From contig JAJPHM010000077.1 in the NCBI GenBank assembly GCA_021325295.1, forward strand, positions 62,001-126,000: a stretch of 64,000 nucleotides of DNA, written 5' to 3'. The notes beneath the pieces are model-generated. The model did not search any database. It was given only the letters and a program-made list of their open reading frames with translations, and had not been told where the DNA came from. This document shows positions 1 through 10,304 of this stretch, one piece after another. The stretch comes from Nitrososphaeraceae archaeon (lineage in GTDB: Archaea > Thermoproteota > Nitrososphaeria > Nitrososphaerales > Nitrososphaeraceae). A program made the translations under genes and the position numbers. Within the stretch, counting starts at the first letter, position 1. Each line of letters opens with the position of its first letter.

Positions 1-1434
1 TTAAAAGATGAGTACATACGCAAGCAGGAAGAACTCTACGAAAAGCTTCGAGAAACTGAAAGGCTAAAGGATGAATTCATAAATATTGCTGCTCACGAGC
101 TGCGGACTCCACTTATGCCTATTATGGGCGGAGTCGAAATACTCGAATCAAAGCTAAACGGCAAATCCAAGATAAATGAAAATGAGATTCGCGACGAGCT
201 AGCAGTAATTAACCGCAATGCAGAGAGACTGCTGAAACTTGCAGAGGACATACTCGAAGTCAGCAGAATGGAAAGTGGCATATTCAAGATGAAGGTAGAG
301 CAGGTAAATCTCTATTCTCTGATATCTGATATAATTTCCGATATTGAAAAGAAATACTCTACATTGCACGATCCGGGTAAAGCAGGACGGATAGATAAGA
401 CCACTGAAGGACAAGACCTTCGTTCACTGATTTTGTATGTAGTAGGAGAGAAGAACAATCCTGCAAATAACAAATTCAAGATACACTTTCAGCGAGAAAA
501 TGATAGCGAGAGTTCAGGAAGTGGTGCAGGCGGTATTGACAAGATATTTGTCGAATGCGACAGAGGAAAAATCGGGCAGGTACTTTTCAATCTCTTGGAT
601 AACGCAATGAAGTTCATAGAGGGCAGAGGTAAGATAGAAGTATCTGCCAAGGTCTCTGGACAGACAGTTACGGTGAAGGTTAGCGATACGGGCAAAGGAA
701 TAGACCCTTCAATAAAAGACACGTTATTTGACAAGTTTGTATCAAAATCAGACAAAGGTTCTGGCCTGGGACTTTACATCTCTAAAAAGATAATTGAAGC
801 TCACGGAGGAAAGATATGGGCAGAAAATACCCCCCAAGGAGGAGCAGTATTCACATTCAGCCTTCCACTTCAGTTCACTGGCAGGGTTCAGCCTGAACGT
901 CAGCACGTACCTACAGTTACAGACATGTATCGCTCATCACTTGAAAAGACATGGGGAGAATCTCTCGAGAAATTAGAGGCCATGAAGAGAAATCTCTTGG
1001 CTGCAAGGGACGAGGCACTGCGTAAGAGAAACGAGGGCCTGTTGCAATACCAGAAGAAGGTAGAAGAGTCAAGAAAACTCATTATGGCAAAACAGGAGTT
1101 CATAAACCAGCAGATTAATTACAAGAAAATGCGCCGCGAGATAGACAGCAGAATAGAAAAGGGGCTTGAAGGGCTCCAGCGGCTAATTGAAGGCCTCAGG
1201 GATAATATTCTGGGAGATGAAGCCGTTGAGAAAATAGTCCTGCACCCTACCGTCTCTGAGGCTATCAAGTATGAAGCAAATAAAGTAACCAAGACAGAAT
1301 TTTTCAAATCCATCCAACAGCAGCTGGGCATTCTCCAGAAAAATGAATCTTCTGGCAGGAAGAGCGAACAAGAGGATGAAAAGAAATTAAGAAGGGCAGG
1401 TCTGCACATAGAGTCGGGAAAGAACCAGAGGTGA
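1..1434 (+). CDS. Sensor histidine kinase with long C-terminal coiled coil (5' end outside window)
   Basis: The reading frame is open from base 1, so the N-terminus (any sensor domain) lies outside the window. Visible order: a charged helix, then the HisKA H-box with INIAAHELRTPL (phospho-acceptor His at bases 94-96), then a HATPase_c domain with N-box NLLDNAMKF (about 590-615), G1 DTGKGID (about 684-705), F-box LFDKFV and G2 GSGLGLYISKK (about 757-790). Unusually, after the ATPase core there is an extension of about 180 residues (bases 890-1434) rich in K, E, R and Q that looks like coiled coil. No receiver domain is attached. Its stop codon overlaps the start of the MinD-like ATPase gene, so the two are probably translated from one mRNA. 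The signal is unknown; involvement in gas vesicle control is an inference from position only. Confidence 0.9.
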   Translation, partial: LKDEYIRKQEELYEKLRETERLKDEFINIAAHELRTPLMPIMGGVEILESKLNGKSKINENEIRDELAVINRNAERLLKLAEDILEVSRMESGIFKMKVEQVNLYSLISDIISDIEKKYSTLHDPGKAGRIDKTTEGQDLRSLILYVVGEKNNPANNKFKIHFQRENDSESSGSGAGGIDKIFVECDRGKIGQVLFNLLDNAMKFIEGRGKIEVSAKVSGQTVTVKVSDTGKGIDPSIKDTLFDKFVSKSDKGSGLGLYISKKIIEAHGGKIWAENTPQGGAVFTFSLPLQFTGRVQPERQHVPTVTDMYRSSLEKTWGESLEKLEAMKRNLLAARDEALRKRNEGLLQYQKKVEESRKLIMAKQEFINQQINYKKMRREIDSRIEKGLEGLQRLIEGLRDNILGDEAVEKIVLHPTVSEAIKYEANKVTKTEFFKSIQQQLGILQKNESSGRKSEQEDEKKLRRAGLHIESGKNQR

Positions 1435-2237
1435 CAACCAGAATGACCACAAGTAACACTAAATCAACAGATGGCCCATTCAAGGTAGCAATCCATTCAT
1501 TTAAGGGTGGAACAGGCAAGAGCACAATTGCTGCAAACCTTGCAGTTTCACTTGCCTTGGAGGGCAGGAATGTGGGCGTTATGGATTTGGATCTGGCAGG
1601 ACCTGGATTGCATGTCCTTCTCGAACTCAAGCAAGAGGATATGAAGCTTACACTGAACGACTTTTTCTTGGACAAGTGCTCCGCAGTAGAACCTGTAATC
1701 GACCTGACAAGAAGACTCGGCTTAAAGAAGGGAAAACTTGTCTTTGTCCCTGCAAGCTTTAGGGCGGATGATATTGTACGTGTTCTCTCAAAGGGCTATG
1801 AGATACAGAATTTCAGAATTGCTATACAAGAGATATCAAGGTTACATAACCTCGATTGCATGATAATTGACACACACCCGGGAATAGACAAATCGACACT
1901 AGTAGCTATGGGCGTATGCGATATGATAGTCCTTATTTCAAGAATAGACAGTCAGGATATTCTGGGAACAGGGGTAATGATAGAAATCGCAAATACTCTG
2001 AAGAAACCCGGATTGCTCCTTGCAAACATGATACCTCCGGGTGTCGATAGAGAAAAGGTGAAGCAGCGTCTAGAAACACTTTTCAACTCACCTGTAACTG
2101 AGGTGATTCCATTTTATACCGAGGTGCTCCGCGCCTTGAGTACTGAGGTATTTATCCTAAAAAACCCGGATCACGACTTTGCCCGAAGATTGAAGAATGT
2201 AGTAGAGGTACTGCAGACAAGTGCAAGGGCCACCTAG
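1431..2237 (+). CDS. MinD/ParA-family deviant Walker A ATPase
   Basis: 268 residues if the overlapping GTG at 1431 is used; an ATG at 1443 is an alternative. The P-loop KGGTGKST (residues 25-32) is the deviant Walker A motif with the signature second lysine of the SIMIBI MinD/ParA/Mrp group. Walker A' is MDLDLAGPG (about residue 52-60) and Walker B-like MIIDTHPGID follows at about 141-150. Members dimerise on ATP and position or partition cargo such as division proteins, plasmids, flagella or carboxysomes. There is no C-terminal amphipathic helix obvious by eye. The gene overlaps the kinase gene by 4 bases and ends about 108 bases before the gas vesicle genes. ParA-like genes are known inside some bacterial gas vesicle clusters (Serratia), so a vesicle-positioning role is possible but inferred. 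Confidence 0.88.
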   Translation: MTTRMTTSNTKSTDGPFKVAIHSFKGGTGKSTIAANLAVSLALEGRNVGVMDLDLAGPGLHVLLELKQEDMKLTLNDFFLDKCSAVEPVIDLTRRLGLKKGKLVFVPASFRADDIVRVLSKGYEIQNFRIAIQEISRLHNLDCMIIDTHPGIDKSTLVAMGVCDMIVLISRIDSQDILGTGVMIEIANTLKKPGLLLANMIPPGVDREKVKQRLETLFNSPVTEVIPFYTEVLRALSTEVFILKNPDHDFARRLKNVVEVLQTSARAT

Positions 2238-2345: not shown

Positions 2346-2588
2346 TTGTCTCAGCAACAAGCATATAGGCCCATTCTCAGCATATTCGACCTTCTTGACC
2401 GCGTACTCGACAAGGGACTGGTTATCGATGCAAACATCTCTGTTTCGCTGGTGGGTATTGAAATTCTGGTTATCCGAGCAAGAATAGTTGTTGCAGGTGT
2501 GGATACATTCCTTCGCTACGCCGCCGCCCTAGGACTGGCCGGCCCGCCTTCCCTAATCTCGGCTCAGACAGAATCAGGAAGAAAGTAA
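2346..2588 (+). CDS. gvpA: Gas vesicle structural protein GvpA-like
   Basis: 80 residues from a TTG start. The core, about residues 9-62, follows the GvpA pattern closely: [17 protein letters not shown], then [19 protein letters not shown] and [13 protein letters not shown]. In GvpA this amphipathic helix-strand-strand-helix polymerises into the ribs of the gas vesicle shell, and the conserved SLVGIE.L.I.ARVV.A..ET.L.YA string is the hallmark of the major rib protein rather than of GvpJ or GvpM. One difference: the usual DAW at the end of the first helix is DAN here. The C-terminus is short and ends with an S/T/E/K tail. First gene of the gvp run; next gene starts 21 bases downstream. Confidence 0.88.
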
Positions 2589-2609: not shown

Positions 2610-2867
2610 TTGGCAGTCTGCATAGTATGTGGCAGGTTCGAGGAACAGGGACTTCGGGAGGCCATGAATCATGGCTGGGTCTTTACCCGCTGTCCAGAGT
2701 GTCAGAGGGGCACTCCATTTGATATAGTGGCAATTCATTTATCAAAGTCAGTCCCGGAGAATTACCTTGAAGGCTTTTGCTCAAAGCACTGGTTCAAGGA
2801 TAGTGGCATATGCTCTTATTGCAAGATAAAGCGAGGAACCATAGGCCTTGGTGAGGACCTTGCTTAG
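2610..2867 (+). CDS. Small Cys/His-rich (putative zinc-binding) protein inside the gvp cluster
   Basis: 85 residues from a TTG start. I do not recognise the family. It carries an opening CIVCGRF, a second CPEC at about residues 28-31, a single Cys-Lys-His segment (CSKHWF, about 67-72), and a final CSYCKIK near residue 77, giving four Cys pairs/sites arranged like two zinc knuckles (C-x2-C ... C-x2-C ... C-x2-H ... C-x2-C). No membrane segment. It sits between gvpA and the gvpJ-like gene and overlaps the latter's start by about 20 bases, so it is part of the operon. It could be an assembly or regulatory factor of the vesicle genes; this is inferred from position only. Confidence 0.65.
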   Translation: MAVCIVCGRFEEQGLREAMNHGWVFTRCPECQRGTPFDIVAIHLSKSVPENYLEGFCSKHWFKDSGICSYCKIKRGTIGLGEDLA

Positions 2868-3264
2868 GCAAGTGGATCACAGACAGCTAACTCTCATTGA
2901 CCTTCTTGACAGAATTCTGGACAAAGGCGTAGTGATAAACGGCGATGTCACTGTTACTCTCGCCGGAGTGGATCTGCTTTCACTAAAGATAAACCTTGTA
3001 ATAGCATCACTTGAAACTGCCAAAAGGTATGGAATCGAGCTTCCATGGGAAAAATGGGCCAGAGAGCGCGCCGAGCTTGAGGAATCCAAAGGAAAGCAAA
3101 AAGATGAGAAGAGAAAAGAAAATGGCAGCAGCGGTCGCAGAAGTAAGAGTCTGGTGGACAGCCCAACAGGATTATTTATGCGCAACCCTATGGCTGACCC
3201 AAGAATAGAAAGTGCCAACAAAACTAGCTCTGTCCCTGATAAACAGGGAGAAGAGAAAAAATAA
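2848..3264 (+). CDS. gvpJ: Gas vesicle protein of the GvpJ/GvpS type (GvpA superfamily)
   Basis: 138 residues using the TTG at 2848; a start at TTG 2860 or GTG 2872 is equally possible because the overlap with the upstream gene is wobbly. The GvpA-fold domain occupies about residues 14-65: LIDLLDRILDKGVVINGD, VTVTLAGVDLLSLKINLV and IASLETAKRYG. The GD after the first helix and the AGVDLL rather than VGIELL string match the minor GvpJ/GvpS/GvpM branch that nucleates or caps vesicles, not the rib protein. A charged, low-complexity tail of about 65 residues (E, K, R, S) follows, as in several GvpJ proteins. Ends 2 bases before the next gene. Confidence 0.8.
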   Translation: MVRTLLRQVDHRQLTLIDLLDRILDKGVVINGDVTVTLAGVDLLSLKINLVIASLETAKRYGIELPWEKWARERAELEESKGKQKDEKRKENGSSGRRSKSLVDSPTGLFMRNPMADPRIESANKTSSVPDKQGEEKK

Positions 3265-3266
3265 TT

Positions 3267-3890
3267 ATGGTTGCTAAGTCGGTCGACATGCCCCTATGCA
3301 TTGCAGAACAGAGTGGGCAACAAAAAGTATCTGAAAAAAGGTTCGATTTGGATGGTGCCGGCAAAGCCAGAGATGGCTTATCAAAGATGGTTATTTCTAT
3401 TGTGAAATTGCTAGTAGACGTACTTGAGAGGCAGGCTTTGAGAAGAGTCGAGTCAGGAACCGTAACCGATGAGGAAACAGAAAAACTGGGCTTGGCCTTT
3501 ATAAGTATAAGAGAGCAACTTCAACTGACTGCCATGAGCCTTGGAATTTCTCCCCAAGAGCTGGACAAAGAGCTATCCATTATGCTACATGGTTCCTCTG
3601 AAACTTCAATTGCCAGTCTGATTGATAATCTGATTGACAGGGGAACAGTAATTGCAGGAGATATCAAGATTGCAGTGGCCGGTGTTGATCTTGTTTCACT
3701 TAATCTTATTGCATCGCTGACTTCAGTAGCAAACAATCTGGCAGCCAAGCGCGTAGAAAATTCTGTTTCTGAAAAAAAACAAATAAAGGGAAAAATGCAT
3801 GCGGCATTTGAAGTAGGATTGCAAACCCAACGCCCGAAGAGGAAGAGCAAGCCGAGAGCAATTGTAATGGAAGTGCCAAATAATGACTGA
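3267..3890 (+). CDS. gvpK: GvpK fused to a GvpA-superfamily (GvpJ/S-like) domain
   Basis: 207 residues, ATG start. Residues about 39-104 are GvpK: VKLLVDVLERQALRRVESG, then TDEETEKLGLAF, then the LGISPQELDKEL helix. After a short linker (HGSSETS) residues about 113-160 form a second domain with LIDNLIDRGTVIAGD, IKIAVAGVDLVSLNLIASL, the minor GvpA-superfamily (GvpJ/S) pattern. A basic tail of about 45 residues follows. In the gvp clusters I know these two domains are separate genes, often adjacent, so this is a real-looking gene fusion with no stop or frame break between them. GvpK is an essential accessory protein of vesicle biogenesis. Overlaps the gvpF/L gene by 8 bases. Confidence 0.85.
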   Translation: MVAKSVDMPLCIAEQSGQQKVSEKRFDLDGAGKARDGLSKMVISIVKLLVDVLERQALRRVESGTVTDEETEKLGLAFISIREQLQLTAMSLGISPQELDKELSIMLHGSSETSIASLIDNLIDRGTVIAGDIKIAVAGVDLVSLNLIASLTSVANNLAAKRVENSVSEKKQIKGKMHAAFEVGLQTQRPKRKSKPRAIVMEVPNND

Positions 3891-4653
3891 TGGCAGGTAT
3901 ATTTATTGTGTCATGGACCAACCGTTGTCCTCAAAGACTAATTCTGTGAAGCAAGAAAAAGAGATGTACCGTTTTGGGAACATTGGCATCGGCAATAGGC
4001 CAGTATACACTGTAAATTACAAAGATATGGCCGCTGCAGTTAGCAGCGTGCCTTTCAAAGAGATTACTTCAACCCTCGACGATGTAATTGCACACCAGCG
4101 AGTGGTGGAGGCTGCCAGAGCCATGGCAACTGTTCTTCCCGTGAGATTTGGGGTAATAGTCAAGACTGACCAAGGAGTAAAGACGCTCCTTGCTGCATCA
4201 TATGCAGATTTTAGGTCAAAATTGACAAAGTTCGCAGGTATGGATGAAATGGGAGTTAAGGTTCTGCTTGACAAGTCCAAAGCTGAAAAAATGGTATCGC
4301 TTGCTGAAAGCGATTCAGATGAAATAAAGCAACTCCGAGAACAAATCTCTTCGTCCAGTGCTGGCGCTTCACATTTTCTCAAAATGAAGTTGCAGGATGC
4401 AATAAGGAATGAAACTATGCGAAAGATCGACCAAGTGGCAGGAAAGATAAATCAGGAGCTGGCACCGGCTGCGAGCGATTCTTGTATATTAAAAAACGAT
4501 ATTGAGCAGATTATCTTGAACGCGGCTTATCTTGTAGATAGGTCAAAGGTGTCAAATTTCAATTCAAAGCTCAGTAGACTCAGAGAAGAGTACGAGCCCA
4601 AAGGCTTTACGATACATGTAAGCGGACCTTGGGCGCCCTACTCATTTTGCTAG
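3883..4653 (+). CDS. gvpF: Gas vesicle protein GvpF/GvpL
   Basis: 256 residues. Family signatures are clear: the N-terminal GRYIYCVMD strand, the VVEAARAMATVLPVRFG segment at about residues 71-87 (canonical ..VLPVRFGT), and the C-terminal LVDRSKVSNFNSKL plus HVSGPWAPYSF ending. The central part about residues 125-180 is helical and charged. GvpF/L proteins have two domains and act early in vesicle assembly, binding GvpA and other accessory proteins. Most clusters have at least two members (F and L); only one is visible here. It starts inside the end of the gvpK fusion gene and is followed 18 bases later by the gvpG-like gene. Confidence 0.9.
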   Translation: MTDGRYIYCVMDQPLSSKTNSVKQEKEMYRFGNIGIGNRPVYTVNYKDMAAAVSSVPFKEITSTLDDVIAHQRVVEAARAMATVLPVRFGVIVKTDQGVKTLLAASYADFRSKLTKFAGMDEMGVKVLLDKSKAEKMVSLAESDSDEIKQLREQISSSSAGASHFLKMKLQDAIRNETMRKIDQVAGKINQELAPAASDSCILKNDIEQIILNAAYLVDRSKVSNFNSKLSRLREEYEPKGFTIHVSGPWAPYSFC

Positions 4654-4671: not shown

Positions 4672-4962
4672 TTGTTAATAGAATTCCTCGTCATGAAACT
4701 TACGCTGGATGCTGTTCTTCAGCACTGCAACGGTCTTGCATATGAGCAGCAGCTACGCCAGAATATCCAGCAGCTAAAATCCCGGCTTATGAACCTTGTA
4801 AACGAGTACCAGATAGGAAATATCGACAGCAAGACATATTCTGAAGGTGAAGCAGCGATACTCCAGGAGCTGAGCTTGCTTGCTCAGGAAATAAACAAGC
4901 ACAAAAGCAACAACGTTACTGCAAGCAGTGGTATGGGTCTGGGTTTGGGTCTTGGGCTATAA
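4672..4962 (+). CDS. gvpG: GvpG-like small coiled-coil protein with Gly-Leu tail
   Basis: 96 residues from TTG 4672 (an ATG at 4693 would give 89). Residues about 27-80 form an amphipathic helix pair with the GvpG-like pattern of a basic QQLKSRLMNLVNEYQIG stretch followed by SKTYSEGEAAILQEL. GvpG is a small helical assembly protein partnering GvpF/L, and the gene position directly after gvpF/L fits. The typical hydrophobic GvpG N-terminus is weak here. The C-terminus is odd: GMGLGLGLGL, encoded by a near-repeat of ggtctggg/ggtttggg units. Assignment is moderate; it could be another helical accessory protein. Confidence 0.55.
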   Translation: MLIEFLVMKLTLDAVLQHCNGLAYEQQLRQNIQQLKSRLMNLVNEYQIGNIDSKTYSEGEAAILQELSLLAQEINKHKSNNVTASSGMGLGLGLGL

Positions 4963-5210
4963 ATTAAATTTACACATTTCCGCCTATGCGAAAGACCGGC
5001 AACTATGACGAACAGGTTCCGATTAGATAGATAGCGAGAAAAGATTTAGCTGAAAACGAACATCGACTTTCTGTGAAGACGAAGGTGCTGTGTCCAAAAC
5101 CTATTCTATATGATTTCATTCAGAAAAAGATTTTACCATTTTGGCAGTACAGAAAATATTCCACCAGTTTGATATTAACGCAAAAAGATAATTTCTGCAA
5201 TGATGCCGGA

Positions 5211-6074
5211 TCAAAGATTAACTGATGCAATGCATTCAGACAGGATCTTTGCGGCCAGATGTGCAGTAATCCCGCCGATATCAAAATCAGGAGAGAGCTC
5301 GACTATATCAATTCCTGCAATCATGCCAGTGCTGATCACCTCCTTGACTAGGTATACTAGCTCGACGCTACCAAGGCCGCAGGCTGAGGGAACAGATACG
5401 CCCGGGGCAAATGAAGGATCAAGGCAATCTAGGTCTATAGAGATGTACTTTCTTATGCCACGCGTTCTTGACTTTATATGGCGTGAGACTTGCAGCACGC
5501 CCTTTTCTGCTATATCAACTGGTGTTACTACCTTCAATCCTGCTTTCCTTGCATTTTCCAGTTCTTCAGGCTCGGCGGCTCTAGTCCCTATTAGCAAACT
5601 CTTCTTGAAATCAAGCGAGTGCCTAGAATCAGAGAGTACAGAACCATAATAGTCCTTTGTCGAAGATACAAAATCAGGGTGTGCGTCAAAGTAAACTAGC
5701 CCAACTTTTCCAAATTCGCGCGAGGCCGCTCGTAAAGCCTCAGTTGTTACAGAGTGATCTCCACCTATAATTATGGGAAGCTTTTTGTTTGAGATTACTT
5801 TGGATACTAAATCGCAGAGATCTGCTCTGTCGACATTACCAAGGTCATGAATGCGTTTGCCATCAAAAGTGCCCCGCATTGGAAGAATGGGAATTCTATT
5901 GTCGGCTCTTTCGAAAAACTCTGACTCATGTGATGCCATTCTAAGAACATCTGGGCCGTTGCGAGTGCCCTTACGTTTGGCATGAGATTTGGATTCGTCC
6001 GGCACACCTATAATTACAATATCTGCCTCAGACATTGCTGAGGTATTAGAGCGTGCAAATAATACCATATCCAT
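5211..6074 (-). CDS. speB: Agmatinase/arginase-family ureohydrolase
   Basis: 287 residues, ATG start. Binuclear Mn motifs of the ureohydrolase family are present: GGDHSVT (about 100-106), FDAHPD (about 124-129) and SIDLDCLDPSFAPG (about 206-219), plus the later DIVELSPDFD (about 254-263). These hydrolyse a guanidino group to urea; agmatine to putrescine is the expected reaction in archaea that make polyamines from arginine. The usual His-Gly-Thr substrate loop after the second motif is not obvious (SDSRHS occupies the region), so substrate is uncertain; formiminoglutamase-like or other guanidino substrates are alternatives. Convergent with the gvp cluster, divergent from the enoyl-CoA hydratase gene. 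Confidence 0.85.
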   Translation of the reverse strand: MDMVLFARSNTSAMSEADIVIIGVPDESKSHAKRKGTRNGPDVLRMASHESEFFERADNRIPILPMRGTFDGKRIHDLGNVDRADLCDLVSKVISNKKLPIIIGGDHSVTTEALRAASREFGKVGLVYFDAHPDFVSSTKDYYGSVLSDSRHSLDFKKSLLIGTRAAEPEELENARKAGLKVVTPVDIAEKGVLQVSRHIKSRTRGIRKYISIDLDCLDPSFAPGVSVPSACGLGSVELVYLVKEVISTGMIAGIDIVELSPDFDIGGITAHLAAKILSECIASVNL

Positions 6075-6283
6075 AGAAACAAAGGATGGCTAATTTAACT
6101 ATGGCATAAAAGGTGTATTAATTGGCCACTTTTCGCATGTCCCTGCACATAAATAATATAATAGAATACAAAATCTTGACATTTGATCTTTAATTGAGCA
6201 AACAAACTTTTGCGATTTTTATTGGAACTTGGCAGACAAGAATAGGTTTAATTGAAAGGAGCAGGCTACCATGACCTACTACG

Positions 6284-7144
6284 ATGTCTAGCATGAAGTA
6301 TATTCAACTGGAACCACAAGGAGAGATTGCAATCATAAGAATCAACAGACCTGAAGCACTCAATGCCATGAACGTCGATGTTATTTCAGAACTCTCGCAC
6401 ATAGTTGACCTTGTAGGAAATGACGATGCCATCAAGGTCGTAATTATCACCGGCGCAGGAGAGCGCTCCTTCTGCGCAGGAGCAGATATTGCGTATATGG
6501 TCAACATTGACCCTATACAGGCCGAAAGGTATGCATCTTCCGCTCAATCAGTTCTCAACAAGATAGAAAAACTCGAAAAGCCGGTAATTGCAGCAATCAA
6601 CGGCTTTGCACTCGGTGGAGGATGTGAACTGGCAATGGTTTGCGATATAAGGATTGCTTCCAGCAACGCAAAGATAGGTCAGCCCGAGGTAACAATCGGA
6701 ATTCCTCCCGGCTGGGGCGGAACTCAGAGGCTTGTTAGGATTGTCGGGCCTGCAAAAGCAAAGGAGCTTATCTTCACTGGAAAAATGATAACTGCAGAAG
6801 AAGCAGCTGCGATAGGGCTTGTCAACAAGGTGGTCAGCACTGGAACCGATGATAACCTTCCACCTGAAGCGCCAAAAGGAGATACAGCAAAAGAGAAAGA
6901 AAGAGCCGCAGAAATAGCAAAAATACTGAATAGAAAGCTGATGGACGAATGCATATCCCTTGCAAAGGAAATTGCAAAGAACAGCTTTGGAGCAGTCAGG
7001 ACAAGCAAGATGTTGATAAATAGAGGAATTGAAACTGATATAGAAACAGGGCTAAGACTGGAAATCTATGGATGGGCACTTTGCTTTGCCAACGAAGATA
7101 GAAAGAGAATGATGTCTGCATTTCTAAACAAAGGCAAAAAGTAA
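6284..7144 (+). CDS. Enoyl-CoA hydratase family; likely crotonyl-CoA hydratase/3-hydroxypropionyl-CoA dehydratase
   Basis: 286 residues. Crotonase fold with the oxyanion-hole segment AGERSFCAGADIAYM (about 64-78) and second segment GFALGGGCELAMVCDIR; both catalytic glutamates are present, in GGGCELA (about residue 116) and GQPEVTIGIPPGWGG (about residue 136). The residues match a true hydratase rather than an isomerase. In ammonia-oxidising archaea one such enzyme does double duty in the 3-hydroxypropionate/4-hydroxybutyrate carbon fixation cycle, dehydrating 3-hydroxypropionyl-CoA and hydrating crotonyl-CoA; this gene is a good candidate but the substrate cannot be read from sequence. An insertion of about 20 charged residues (DNLPPEAPKGDTAKEKER) lies before the C-terminal helices. 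Start chosen at ATG 6284; a second ATG is 4 codons in. Confidence 0.88.
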   Translation: MSSMKYIQLEPQGEIAIIRINRPEALNAMNVDVISELSHIVDLVGNDDAIKVVIITGAGERSFCAGADIAYMVNIDPIQAERYASSAQSVLNKIEKLEKPVIAAINGFALGGGCELAMVCDIRIASSNAKIGQPEVTIGIPPGWGGTQRLVRIVGPAKAKELIFTGKMITAEEAAAIGLVNKVVSTGTDDNLPPEAPKGDTAKEKERAAEIAKILNRKLMDECISLAKEIAKNSFGAVRTSKMLINRGIETDIETGLRLEIYGWALCFANEDRKRMMSAFLNKGKK

Positions 7145-7227
7145 ACAAGATAGATGTACATCTCCTAGCTGGCGGGTAAACAAACATAGGAGAAAATTAC
7201 AATCATATCAAAATGCATTGTCTTTTA

Positions 7228-8226
7228 TTAAACGATCTTGGCGCCAAGACTTGGTCTGCAGACAAATGTCCTGCTCTTGAGACCTGCTTCATTAAACCCT
7301 GCTGCCATCGCACTGGCTACAGATTTGCCGCATGCTTCCCCGTCAAGTATAGATATCATCGATGGCCCAGCACCGCTGATCGTTGTCGCAAGTGCTCCGG
7401 CCTCTTGAGCCTTTCTTTTGACTGCTTCATAGCCGGGGATAAGATGCTTTCTTGCCGGCTCGACTATTGCATCATGTATACCATATGCAATCAATTCAAC
7501 GTTTTTGAGGCCGAAGCCAGCTACGATAATGCTTGCATTTGAAACATTCTGAAATGCGCTTTCAATCGGAACTGCTTTTGGCAAGACGCTTCTTGCTACG
7601 CCAGTTTTTTTCTCAGGAACTTCCATACTGGGAACGGCCACTACCAGCACTAGATTAGTCGGAGCTTCTAGGCTCGTAAATACCAGGTTCTGGTCGCGAT
7701 TGGAGCCAACTATGACAAATCCGCCAAGCACAGAAGCTGCAACGTTATCGTAATGTCTTGTACCTGCGCTAGCAAGCTCACCTTCGGCAGCATATTCAAC
7801 GAGTTTTGATTTTTCGACCTTCAGGCCAAAGAGTTCATTGAATGCCAACGCGGCTGCCGCAGCTGATGCTGCACTGCTGCCCATTCCAAAACCAGCAGGA
7901 ACTCCCTTATTGACACTGACATTGATACTTCCGCGGATATCAAAATCTGCTGCCATTTTTTTTACAACGATTCCAGCCGAATTGTTTTCCGGTACTGTAG
8001 GGATAATTTTGGAGCCTTCGCCACCAACCTCGATAGATATTGTCAATTTGTCTTTTCTAGACAGTGAAGCCGAATTGTTTTGGCGCCCCGGGTCCGCTGA
8101 TTCAGCTTTTATGGTCACAGTATCTTGAAGCGCATCTAGGGCAAGGCCAAAAATGTCAAATCCGGGCCCAAAATTTGCGGTTGAGCATGGTGCGACTGCT
8201 GTGCAAGAAGAATCACTATCTTTCAT
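7228..8226 (-). CDS. thrB: Homoserine kinase (GHMP family)
   Basis: 332 residues. Phosphorylates homoserine for threonine synthesis. GHMP motif 1 STANFGPGFDIFGLAL (about 15-30) is the ThrB form, motif 2 is the ATP loop GVPAGFGMGSSAASAAAAA (about 109-127), and motif 3 is TTISGAGPSMISI (about 285-297). An internal low-complexity insertion at about residues 42-60 (Q/N/S) lengthens the N-terminal domain slightly relative to bacterial ThrB (about 310). Stop of this gene is 83 bases from the convergent hydratase gene. It is 17 bases downstream of the GPN-loop GTPase gene, so probably co-transcribed with it. Confidence 0.9.
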   Translation of the reverse strand: MKDSDSSCTAVAPCSTANFGPGFDIFGLALDALQDTVTIKAESADPGRQNNSASLSRKDKLTISIEVGGEGSKIIPTVPENNSAGIVVKKMAADFDIRGSINVSVNKGVPAGFGMGSSAASAAAAALAFNELFGLKVEKSKLVEYAAEGELASAGTRHYDNVAASVLGGFVIVGSNRDQNLVFTSLEAPTNLVLVVAVPSMEVPEKKTGVARSVLPKAVPIESAFQNVSNASIIVAGFGLKNVELIAYGIHDAIVEPARKHLIPGYEAVKRKAQEAGALATTISGAGPSMISILDGEACGKSVASAMAAGFNEAGLKSRTFVCRPSLGAKIV

Positions 8227-8243
8227 TTCCGATATTCTGCCCC

Positions 8244-9002
8244 CTAACCTGTGACTTCTTCTCCTTGATTAAGGATTCTGGCAAGCGCGGCTGACAAGTT
8301 GACCAATCCGCTCATGGTCAAGCCGGATACACCAATCAGAGTGTGAGCAAATCCGCCTCGAACAATGGCCCTGGCAAGGTCTTTGCTCAAAAGTGAATAC
8401 TCCCCATTTTTTTCCTGGTCTAGCGCAGATTCAAGAGAAGCTATCGATGACGACCAGCCAAGAATTTCACGCAATTTCTCTGGAACGAGATCCGTCTTGG
8501 TCAGAACATTTATCTGTGCTGTCTTTAGCCTGAGTCTGACTGAAGCCGCAAGAAGCGATATTGATACAAAGTTGATTGGATTTGACACAACTGCAGCATC
8601 AAATGCAAATATGGCAGCTTTGCCTTCTGCCTGTAGATTCGAGACAAAATATGGCCCGCTTGCTCTGAAGGCAAAGAGCTCAATCTGACCAGGTGTGTCG
8701 ATTATCAAATAATCAGGGTTGAGTACATCAATTTCATTCTGAAGCTCAGCAAGCCGCGCCGCGATCATGTCACTTGCTACCACCAGTGAGCCGTTTGGTC
8801 CAAGGTGATGGTTTGCCATGAGATCATTGATATCTATATAATCACGCACATCTAGATCCGGCTCGTAGGGCAGGCTAACGACTCCAGGATCAAGGTTAAG
8901 GCAAGCTGGGTACGCACCCAGATCATTATACCATTGCATTAATTTCGAGGTCAGTAGGGACTTGCCGGAGCCGGCTGTTCCAGTTACAAAGACTGCAAAC
9001 AT
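8244..9002 (-). CDS. GPN-loop GTPase
   Basis: 252 residues from ATG at 9002 (an in-frame TTG at 9014 would add four). P-loop GTAGSGKS (about 8-15), the family-defining GPN motif in HHLGPNGSL (about 69-77), Walker B IIDTPGQIELF (about 100-110) with catalytic Gln, NVLTKTDLV (NKxD-equivalent TKxD, about 167-175). GPN GTPases are dimeric and in eukaryotes assist RNA polymerase assembly and nuclear import; the archaeal role is thought to be informational but is not settled. Located just upstream of thrB on the same strand. Confidence 0.9.
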   Translation of the reverse strand: MFAVFVTGTAGSGKSLLTSKLMQWYNDLGAYPACLNLDPGVVSLPYEPDLDVRDYIDINDLMANHHLGPNGSLVVASDMIAARLAELQNEIDVLNPDYLIIDTPGQIELFAFRASGPYFVSNLQAEGKAAIFAFDAAVVSNPINFVSISLLAASVRLRLKTAQINVLTKTDLVPEKLREILGWSSSIASLESALDQEKNGEYSLLSKDLARAIVRGGFAHTLIGVSGLTMSGLVNLSAALARILNQGEEVTG

Positions 9003-9197
9003 ATCCAATATCAACCTGTAAATTTATTCAATGCAAGATGGATTACATCAAATTCCATCAGGTTTAGAATAGACAGTATCATTCGAGTAACGGCATGCTG
9101 GATGAACATTATACTTTTGCAGCTGACATATGTCTTCGAACGGTGAATGCGTCTATGCGTTATTATATGGCAGTATCTTTCAGCTAAGCGATAATTC
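9003..9197. other. Divergent promoter region between GPN GTPase and UPF0104 genes
   Basis: About 190 bases; no gene of its own. A longer minus-strand frame across 9011-9421 is a shadow of the UPF0104 gene. AT-rich patches (aatttattca near 9018) may be promoter elements. Confidence 0.35.
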
Positions 9198-10304
9198 TTG
9201 AACTGGCGACTCATCGCCATACCAGCAAGCATTGTACCCTTTATCATACTATTCGTTACGACCAAAGTCTCTCCGCAGGATGTCTTTGCTGTTGGGTTGG
9301 TACCTTTTATCATATCCTCTTGCGCTGCTCTAACTAGGATAATGCTACAGGCACTGAGGTTCAGGTACTTTATCAGAATGTTCATAGGACGACATGTCAG
9401 TACTACTGCAAAGACCATCACTGCACGATTGGCTGGCGAATTTGTAACATCTACGACCCCGTCCTATGTAGGTGGAGAATTCATAAGGATAGCTTGGCTT
9501 GCAAAGCAGGGTGTCCCTACGGGAAAAGCCGCCTGGATAACTACAATGGAAATAATAGCAGATGTGTTTGTTGGATCGATGCTTGCCTTTATTGCAGGGG
9601 CATTTGCCATATACAGGGGAGGAACGGTTATCGGGATAACCGTAATACTTGTTACCATACCGACCTTTTCAATCTGGCTTGCTTTCGTTCTGCTTTCCGC
9701 CCGACGGACTTTACAGCTTCCTGCGTTTGTTTTGAACATCATGCTGAAATTGCTGGCAAAAGAAAAGGCAGAAAGGCTCTTCAATTCAGCGAATGTTGCA
9801 ATAGCTGATTTGTGCAAGATGAGCAGAGAGAATTTCAATTCCTCACGAGCAGTCAAAGCTTTTGCAGTAGGCCTCGCGATAACCTTCATGGCCTTCCTGT
9901 TTCAGGGTGTGTCATTTATGGTGCTTGCAAATGCCGTTCCCTCAGGCTCAAGGGTGGGGCTTTTTGACTCTCTTATGGCTACTTCTGCGTCAAGTGCCGT
10001 TGCCAGCCTTCCTATTACAATAGGTGGATCGGGGCTTGCCGAACTAGGAATATGGGCATATATCTCAAACCTCAATGGCGTTTTCGATATAAGTAAAGTT
10101 ATCAAAAGTGCCCAATTGAGTGTAATAATAGCATGGAGAATAGCTACTTACCATGTTCCTCTTGTCGTTTCTTGGCTTGCGCTCATGAGACTCACAGCTG
10201 GAAAGGCATCTGTTGGCGGAAACGGGTTGTCTGGGAAAGAGCAGGGACATGGCAAGTCCGAGCCAGCAACCAAAAATTCGCCGGATGGAAACAAAGGTGT
10301 CTGA
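9198..10304 (+). CDS. UPF0104/YbhN-type flippase-like integral membrane protein
   Basis: 368 residues from TTG 9198; about 7-8 hydrophobic helices. The family pattern is visible: a first pair of helices, the RFRYFIRMFIG linker, the ARLAGEFVTSTTPSYVGGEFIRIAWL segment split over about residues 74-99, and the later LPITIGGSGLAELGIWAY motif (about 272-289). This is the lysylphosphatidylglycerol-synthase transmembrane region family that includes archaeal AglD-neighbour proteins and likely moves lipids or lipid-linked sugars across the membrane. C-terminal 35 residues are hydrophilic, G/S/K-rich and presumably cytoplasmic. Substrate unknown. Divergent from the GPN GTPase gene. Confidence 0.82.
   Translation: MNWRLIAIPASIVPFIILFVTTKVSPQDVFAVGLVPFIISSCAALTRIMLQALRFRYFIRMFIGRHVSTTAKTITARLAGEFVTSTTPSYVGGEFIRIAWLAKQGVPTGKAAWITTMEIIADVFVGSMLAFIAGAFAIYRGGTVIGITVILVTIPTFSIWLAFVLLSARRTLQLPAFVLNIMLKLLAKEKAERLFNSANVAIADLCKMSRENFNSSRAVKAFAVGLAITFMAFLFQGVSFMVLANAVPSGSRVGLFDSLMATSASSAVASLPITIGGSGLAELGIWAYISNLNGVFDISKVIKSAQLSVIIAWRIATYHVPLVVSWLALMRLTAGKASVGGNGLSGKEQGHGKSEPATKNSPDGNKGV

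Follow-up and report, generated by a model that had tools for sequence, protein, structure and literature searches.

In Bacillus megaterium (Priestia megaterium), GvpS, GvpK and GvpJ of pNL29 act together before shell growth, deletion of any one of them abolishes the interaction between GvpA2 and GvpL, and they have been proposed to be seeding factors (PMC11445434). None of the four gas-vesicle systems studied can do without GvpK, yet little hints at its functional role; vesicle formation tolerates all of the GvpS fusions tested and most of the GvpK fusions (PMC11445434). In haloarchaea, J, K and M bind GvpL (PMC7688916). The pNL29 operon has the order A2 R N F G L S K J T U. Like the type of cluster described here, it has A, S, K, J, F, G and L; it departs from our fused clusters in encoding K, S and J separately, in carrying GvpN, R, T and U as well as F together with L, and in being without the small zinc-site protein. 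The haloarchaeal clusters (ACNO / FGHIJKLM) resemble the fused type in that J immediately precedes K and L comes next, but differ in that M, the S-like paralogue, is a separate gene after L and in usually having N, O, H and I.

A GvpK gene with a GvpA-type domain in the same frame

We analysed a window of 64,000 nucleotides (the whole stretch of DNA under study) from the genome of a Nitrososphaeraceae archaeon. An initial annotation had claimed that a single frame of 207 residues in this window carries both GvpK and a GvpA-superfamily domain, and this was borne out. The frame has no interruption, all of the motifs quoted in that annotation are present, and both Pfam families are found over their cut-offs by hmmscan: PF05121 (GvpK) with 60.5 bits against a cut-off of 25, covering profile positions 8-79 of 85, and PF00741 (GvpA superfamily) with 37.9 bits against a cut-off of 25, covering positions 1-38 of 39. 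The fusion gene is the sole GvpK of the genome, which is 99.7% complete. The features of the locus are listed in Table 1.

Table 1. Coordinates of the gas-vesicle cluster and its neighbours in the window
Feature	Position	Strand	Remarks
Histidine kinase	1..1434	+	cut by window start; 667 aa in genome
MinD/ParA-type ATPase	1431..2237	+	conserved beside gvp cluster in source family
gvpA, main shell protein type	2346..2588	+	PF00741 9.3e-15; A-type profile best
Small protein, two Cys/His (zinc-like) sites, conserved	2610..2867	+	no Pfam or NCBIfam family at cut-off
gvpJ-like gene, separate GvpA paralogue	2848..3264	+	best NCBIfam model haloarchaeal GvpJ, 2.8e-15
gvpK::gvpS(-like) fusion gene	3267..3890	+	ATG start, 207 aa
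GvpK domain, residues 33-104	3363..3578	+	PF05121 E 1.7e-16; AF2 pLDDT ~71-92 over most
Short linker, residues 105-113	3579..3605	+	
GvpA-superfamily domain, probably GvpS/M-type, residues 114-151	3606..3719	+	PF00741 E 2e-9; S profile
Basic C-terminal tail	3720..3887	+	species-specific
gvpF/gvpL, genome's only copy	3883..4653	+	PF06386 3.5e-64; start overlaps fusion stop
GvpG-like small coiled-coil protein	4672..4962	+	weak: PF05120 0.0047, below cut-off

The gvp ORFs of the window overlap or abut; the gvpJ-like ORF overlaps the preceding one, and its stop lies 2 nt before the ATG of the fusion. The usual order in the fused families is gvpA, the zinc-site protein, the gvpJ-like gene, gvpK::S, gvpF/L and the GvpG-like gene, often with a histidine kinase, and orthologues of the GvpG-like protein match PF05120 at 6e-6 to 5e-4. 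In most fused loci and most families (L117-L134), a histidine kinase lies next to the gvp cluster, and the kinase of the window has an extra C-terminal coiled-coil-like stretch. The zinc-site protein has invariant sites C4 C7 C28 C31 and C57 H60 C68 C71; its orthologues in L117-L136 are 58-82% identical across families, which makes it the most conserved accessory gene among those aligned from this operon type.

Absence of GvpN and GvpO and the probable class of the fused domain

We found that GvpN scored below the cut-off in every fused genome, including the source genome, and that GvpO gave no match over the cut-off in the 19 fused genomes tested and none in the source genome, while both are present in three unfused relatives. 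GvpF/L is single-copy in 17 of the 19. The initial annotation had also proposed that the fusion compensates for missing accessory genes. The fusion does correlate with the absence of GvpN and GvpO, but this is no demonstration of compensation: since the archaeal fusions seem to have a single origin, fusion and absence count as one evolutionary event, which cannot by itself show that one makes up for the other. The compact operon suggests that gas-vesicle clusters can dispense with GvpN and GvpO, and it bears on the design of small acoustic-reporter gene sets. A tentative proposal, which we regard as having a minor chance of being right in full, is that operons of the Nitrososphaeria type encode a reduced gas-vesicle-like shell that is independent of GvpN and GvpO, is seeded by a single K-S polypeptide, is connected with the zinc-site protein and a histidine kinase of its own, and possibly serves soil and marine ammonia oxidisers in some way other than by buoyancy.

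A different reading of the same absences is that the cluster has ceased to make gas vesicles and that a remnant lacking GvpN and GvpO has been repurposed, with the fusion serving a new role, for example in an assembly for sensing or storage that is coupled to the neighbouring histidine kinase. The lack of GvpN in all fused genomes and of GvpO in those tested, the mostly single GvpF/L, and the conservation of the histidine kinase and the zinc-site gene in the cluster would all fit such a remnant. However, the A-type shell protein is strongly conserved and scores like a true GvpA, the canonical core (A, J, S/M, K and F/L) is kept and stands complete in the window cluster, and the literature treats the gas-vesicle genes of ammonia-oxidising archaea as such (PMC3835317, PMC7554672). 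We consider this reading unlikely. The formation of gas vesicles and the expression of these proteins by archaea with fused clusters are predictions from the genes.

The initial annotation had placed the second domain in a joint GvpJ/S type; by profile score the S part of that assignment is favoured, as S/M, over the GvpJ part. Bacterial GvpA-type genes were labelled by position, upstream of K as S and downstream as J, and haloarchaeal labels were likewise taken from the position in the cluster, with J before K and M after L (in one record, the gene after K). With class profiles labelled in this way, the S profile was the best in 21 of 21 fused domains (mean 54.8 bits versus 35.4 for J), with the limit that S is the most diverse class and that diversity can flatter scores. 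The J profile was about 19 bits below S on average, and the fused domains were not assigned to the J subtype; for the domain in the window, the S profile gave 49.2 bits and the J profile 36.7. The same profiles assigned haloarchaeal M to S in 5 of 5 cases, and A and haloarchaeal J received lower S scores. A profile-profile comparison (hhalign) of the fused domain gave 1.7e-21 for S versus 1.7e-15 for J, and the best NCBIfam model was haloarchaeal GvpM, far below its cut-off. Based on these comparisons, the fused GvpA-type domain is probably of the GvpS/M type.

The fused domain could instead be GvpJ, if two bacterial neighbours, K and J, had lost the stop between them. The bacterial gene order is S-K-J, in which J and not S lies downstream of K, and in most bacterial clusters GvpJ follows K on the same strand at a distance of 60-140 nt. 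In addition, a tree of 50 columns of the GvpA domain allows the fused domains to group with J (p-AU 0.161) as well as with S and haloarchaeal M (p-AU 0.094), neither grouping being rejected. Against a GvpJ origin, S outscored J in each of the fused domains, and a J-like gene already lies upstream as it does in haloarchaea; the separate archaeal gene before K was haloarchaeal-J-like in 21 of 21 cases. This origin is a little less probable still than the repurposed remnant. Under the preferred S/M assignment, the A and J-like genes are separate and the S/M domain of the fusion completes the usual trio of A, J and S/M; the genes at 2346-2588 and 2848-3264 are the only two GvpA-family genes in the genome besides the fusion.

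Distribution and conservation of the fusion in archaea

GvpK was present in 34 of 400 sampled genomes of the same order, and in 31 of these 34 it is followed in the same frame by the GvpA-type domain. Both Pfam families lie in one frame in 22 of 22 aligned homologues from independent assemblies. A frame error near 3590-3620, by which assembly or sequencing would have joined two genes of this 79-contig draft, has a negligible probability and is excluded in practice, because the same fusion is conserved in independent assemblies, including the single-contig genomes G049, G087 and G165, and the linker is open in all of them. The K::S fusion is not peculiar to the source genome but typical of its archaeal clade. 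The expectation that K and GvpA-like proteins are separate genes holds for nearly all other clusters examined and does not hold for this clade.

The fusion spans four families (f1, f8, f9 and f10). The source genome encodes archaeal AmoA and is therefore that of an ammonia-oxidising archaeon; no AmoA was found in the genomes checked of two of the four families, which means that the trait is not confined to ammonia oxidisers. In G017 and G026, from two other families, K is separate, and a sample of 300 genomes of the phylum gave one further unfused case, G400. The G320 copy, in which K is incomplete and does not share a frame with S, was taken as damaged or misassembled. The two families, GvpK and the GvpA superfamily, are known, and their conserved K::S arrangement is new: no report of a K::S fusion was found in open-licence papers, and the papers found mention the gas-vesicle genes of ammonia-oxidising archaea only in passing.

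In close pairs, dN over the whole fusion gene was 0.03-0.15 versus a dS of 0.46-1.5 (0.026 versus 0.77 in one example pair), and dN was low in both halves; K::S is under strong purifying selection in both. In the K tree, the fused K sequences lie together on one side of a branch whose support is modest (68), which is consistent with a single fusion event behind the archaeal K::S. The linker between the domain cores is 24-60 nt long in the homologues, and several of these stop directly after the hairpin, without the C-terminal tail. A dual product made through an internal start was rejected, since no start codon between the domains is conserved in the 17 loci read.

Some loci depart from the usual form. 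One genome (G069) has two gvp clusters (L118 and L119), both fused, the second strongly diverged. The K::S of L135 (G050, 5165-9663) belongs to a gvp cluster of another make-up: there are two genes for GvpF/L, and the cluster also encodes KaiC-like ATPases, a Ras-like GTPase domain and a Roadblock protein. In L141 (G115, 805-1911), K::S is seemingly in frame with GvpF/L (368 aa), which may be a three-way fusion or a misassembly at this locus. An apparent fusion of the zinc-site protein to K in L121 was rejected as an assembly gap, since the join crosses masked X residues.

Predicted role in seeding and opposite-order fusions in bacteria

In the AlphaFold2 models, the K half is a long helical hairpin with a short helix (fair to good confidence). 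The S part is modelled, as expected, as a helix-strand-strand hairpin, but its confidence is low (pLDDT 34-56), and the models gave no informative interface. Sequence matches in the PDB were to the GvpA entries 8gbs and 7r1c only, weakly, and a fold search of the PDB gave no match at E<=0.001, the best being the gas vesicle 7r1c (E 0.84). The reading that we favour, with some reserve, is that of a natural fusion of GvpK with GvpS (GvpM-like), predicted to act at vesicle seeding and belonging to a reduced gas-vesicle operon that ammonia-oxidising archaea share with their relatives. K::S would then be a tethered, one-piece seeding factor, in which the soluble helical GvpK half may bind or recruit the GvpF/L scaffold, and the tethered S-type hairpin may enter the nascent shell at its tip, where it would serve as a template for adding GvpA. 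The tether would also keep the hydrophobic S module on a soluble carrier. An effect on assembly stoichiometry, as had been suggested at the outset, follows logically, since the tether would fix K and S at a forced 1:1.

The mirror arrangement occurs in bacteria. In five bacterial loci, four from Gemmatimonadota and one from an Elusimicrobia assembly, K follows a GvpA-type domain within a single frame, and all five are over both Pfam cut-offs. In a sample of the phylum Gemmatimonadota, 9 of the 30 K loci read have S::K and none of the 30 has K::S. Taken together, the S::K loci of Gemmatimonadota and the one Elusimicrobia assembly are L061, L070, L075, L077 and L090, and L165, L174, L175, L179, L182, L183 and L186-L188. 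These bacterial fusions join the same two families in one frame as the archaeal K::S, but in the opposite order and with a linker of ~65-75 aa; a J-type gene follows separately downstream, and these fusions are of independent origin. Because the same pair is fused in both orders, which we regard as strong genomic evidence for one unit, these gene arrangements suggest that GvpK and GvpS are direct partners also where they are unfused. The most valuable part of the finding is that fusions in both orders make the role of GvpK directly testable, and the natural fusions are ready-made 1:1 constructs for testing vesicle seeding. In the B. megaterium operon, the gvpS and gvpK ORFs overlap (PMC11445434), and in the unfused bacterial clusters the end of S is often a few tens of bases from the K core.
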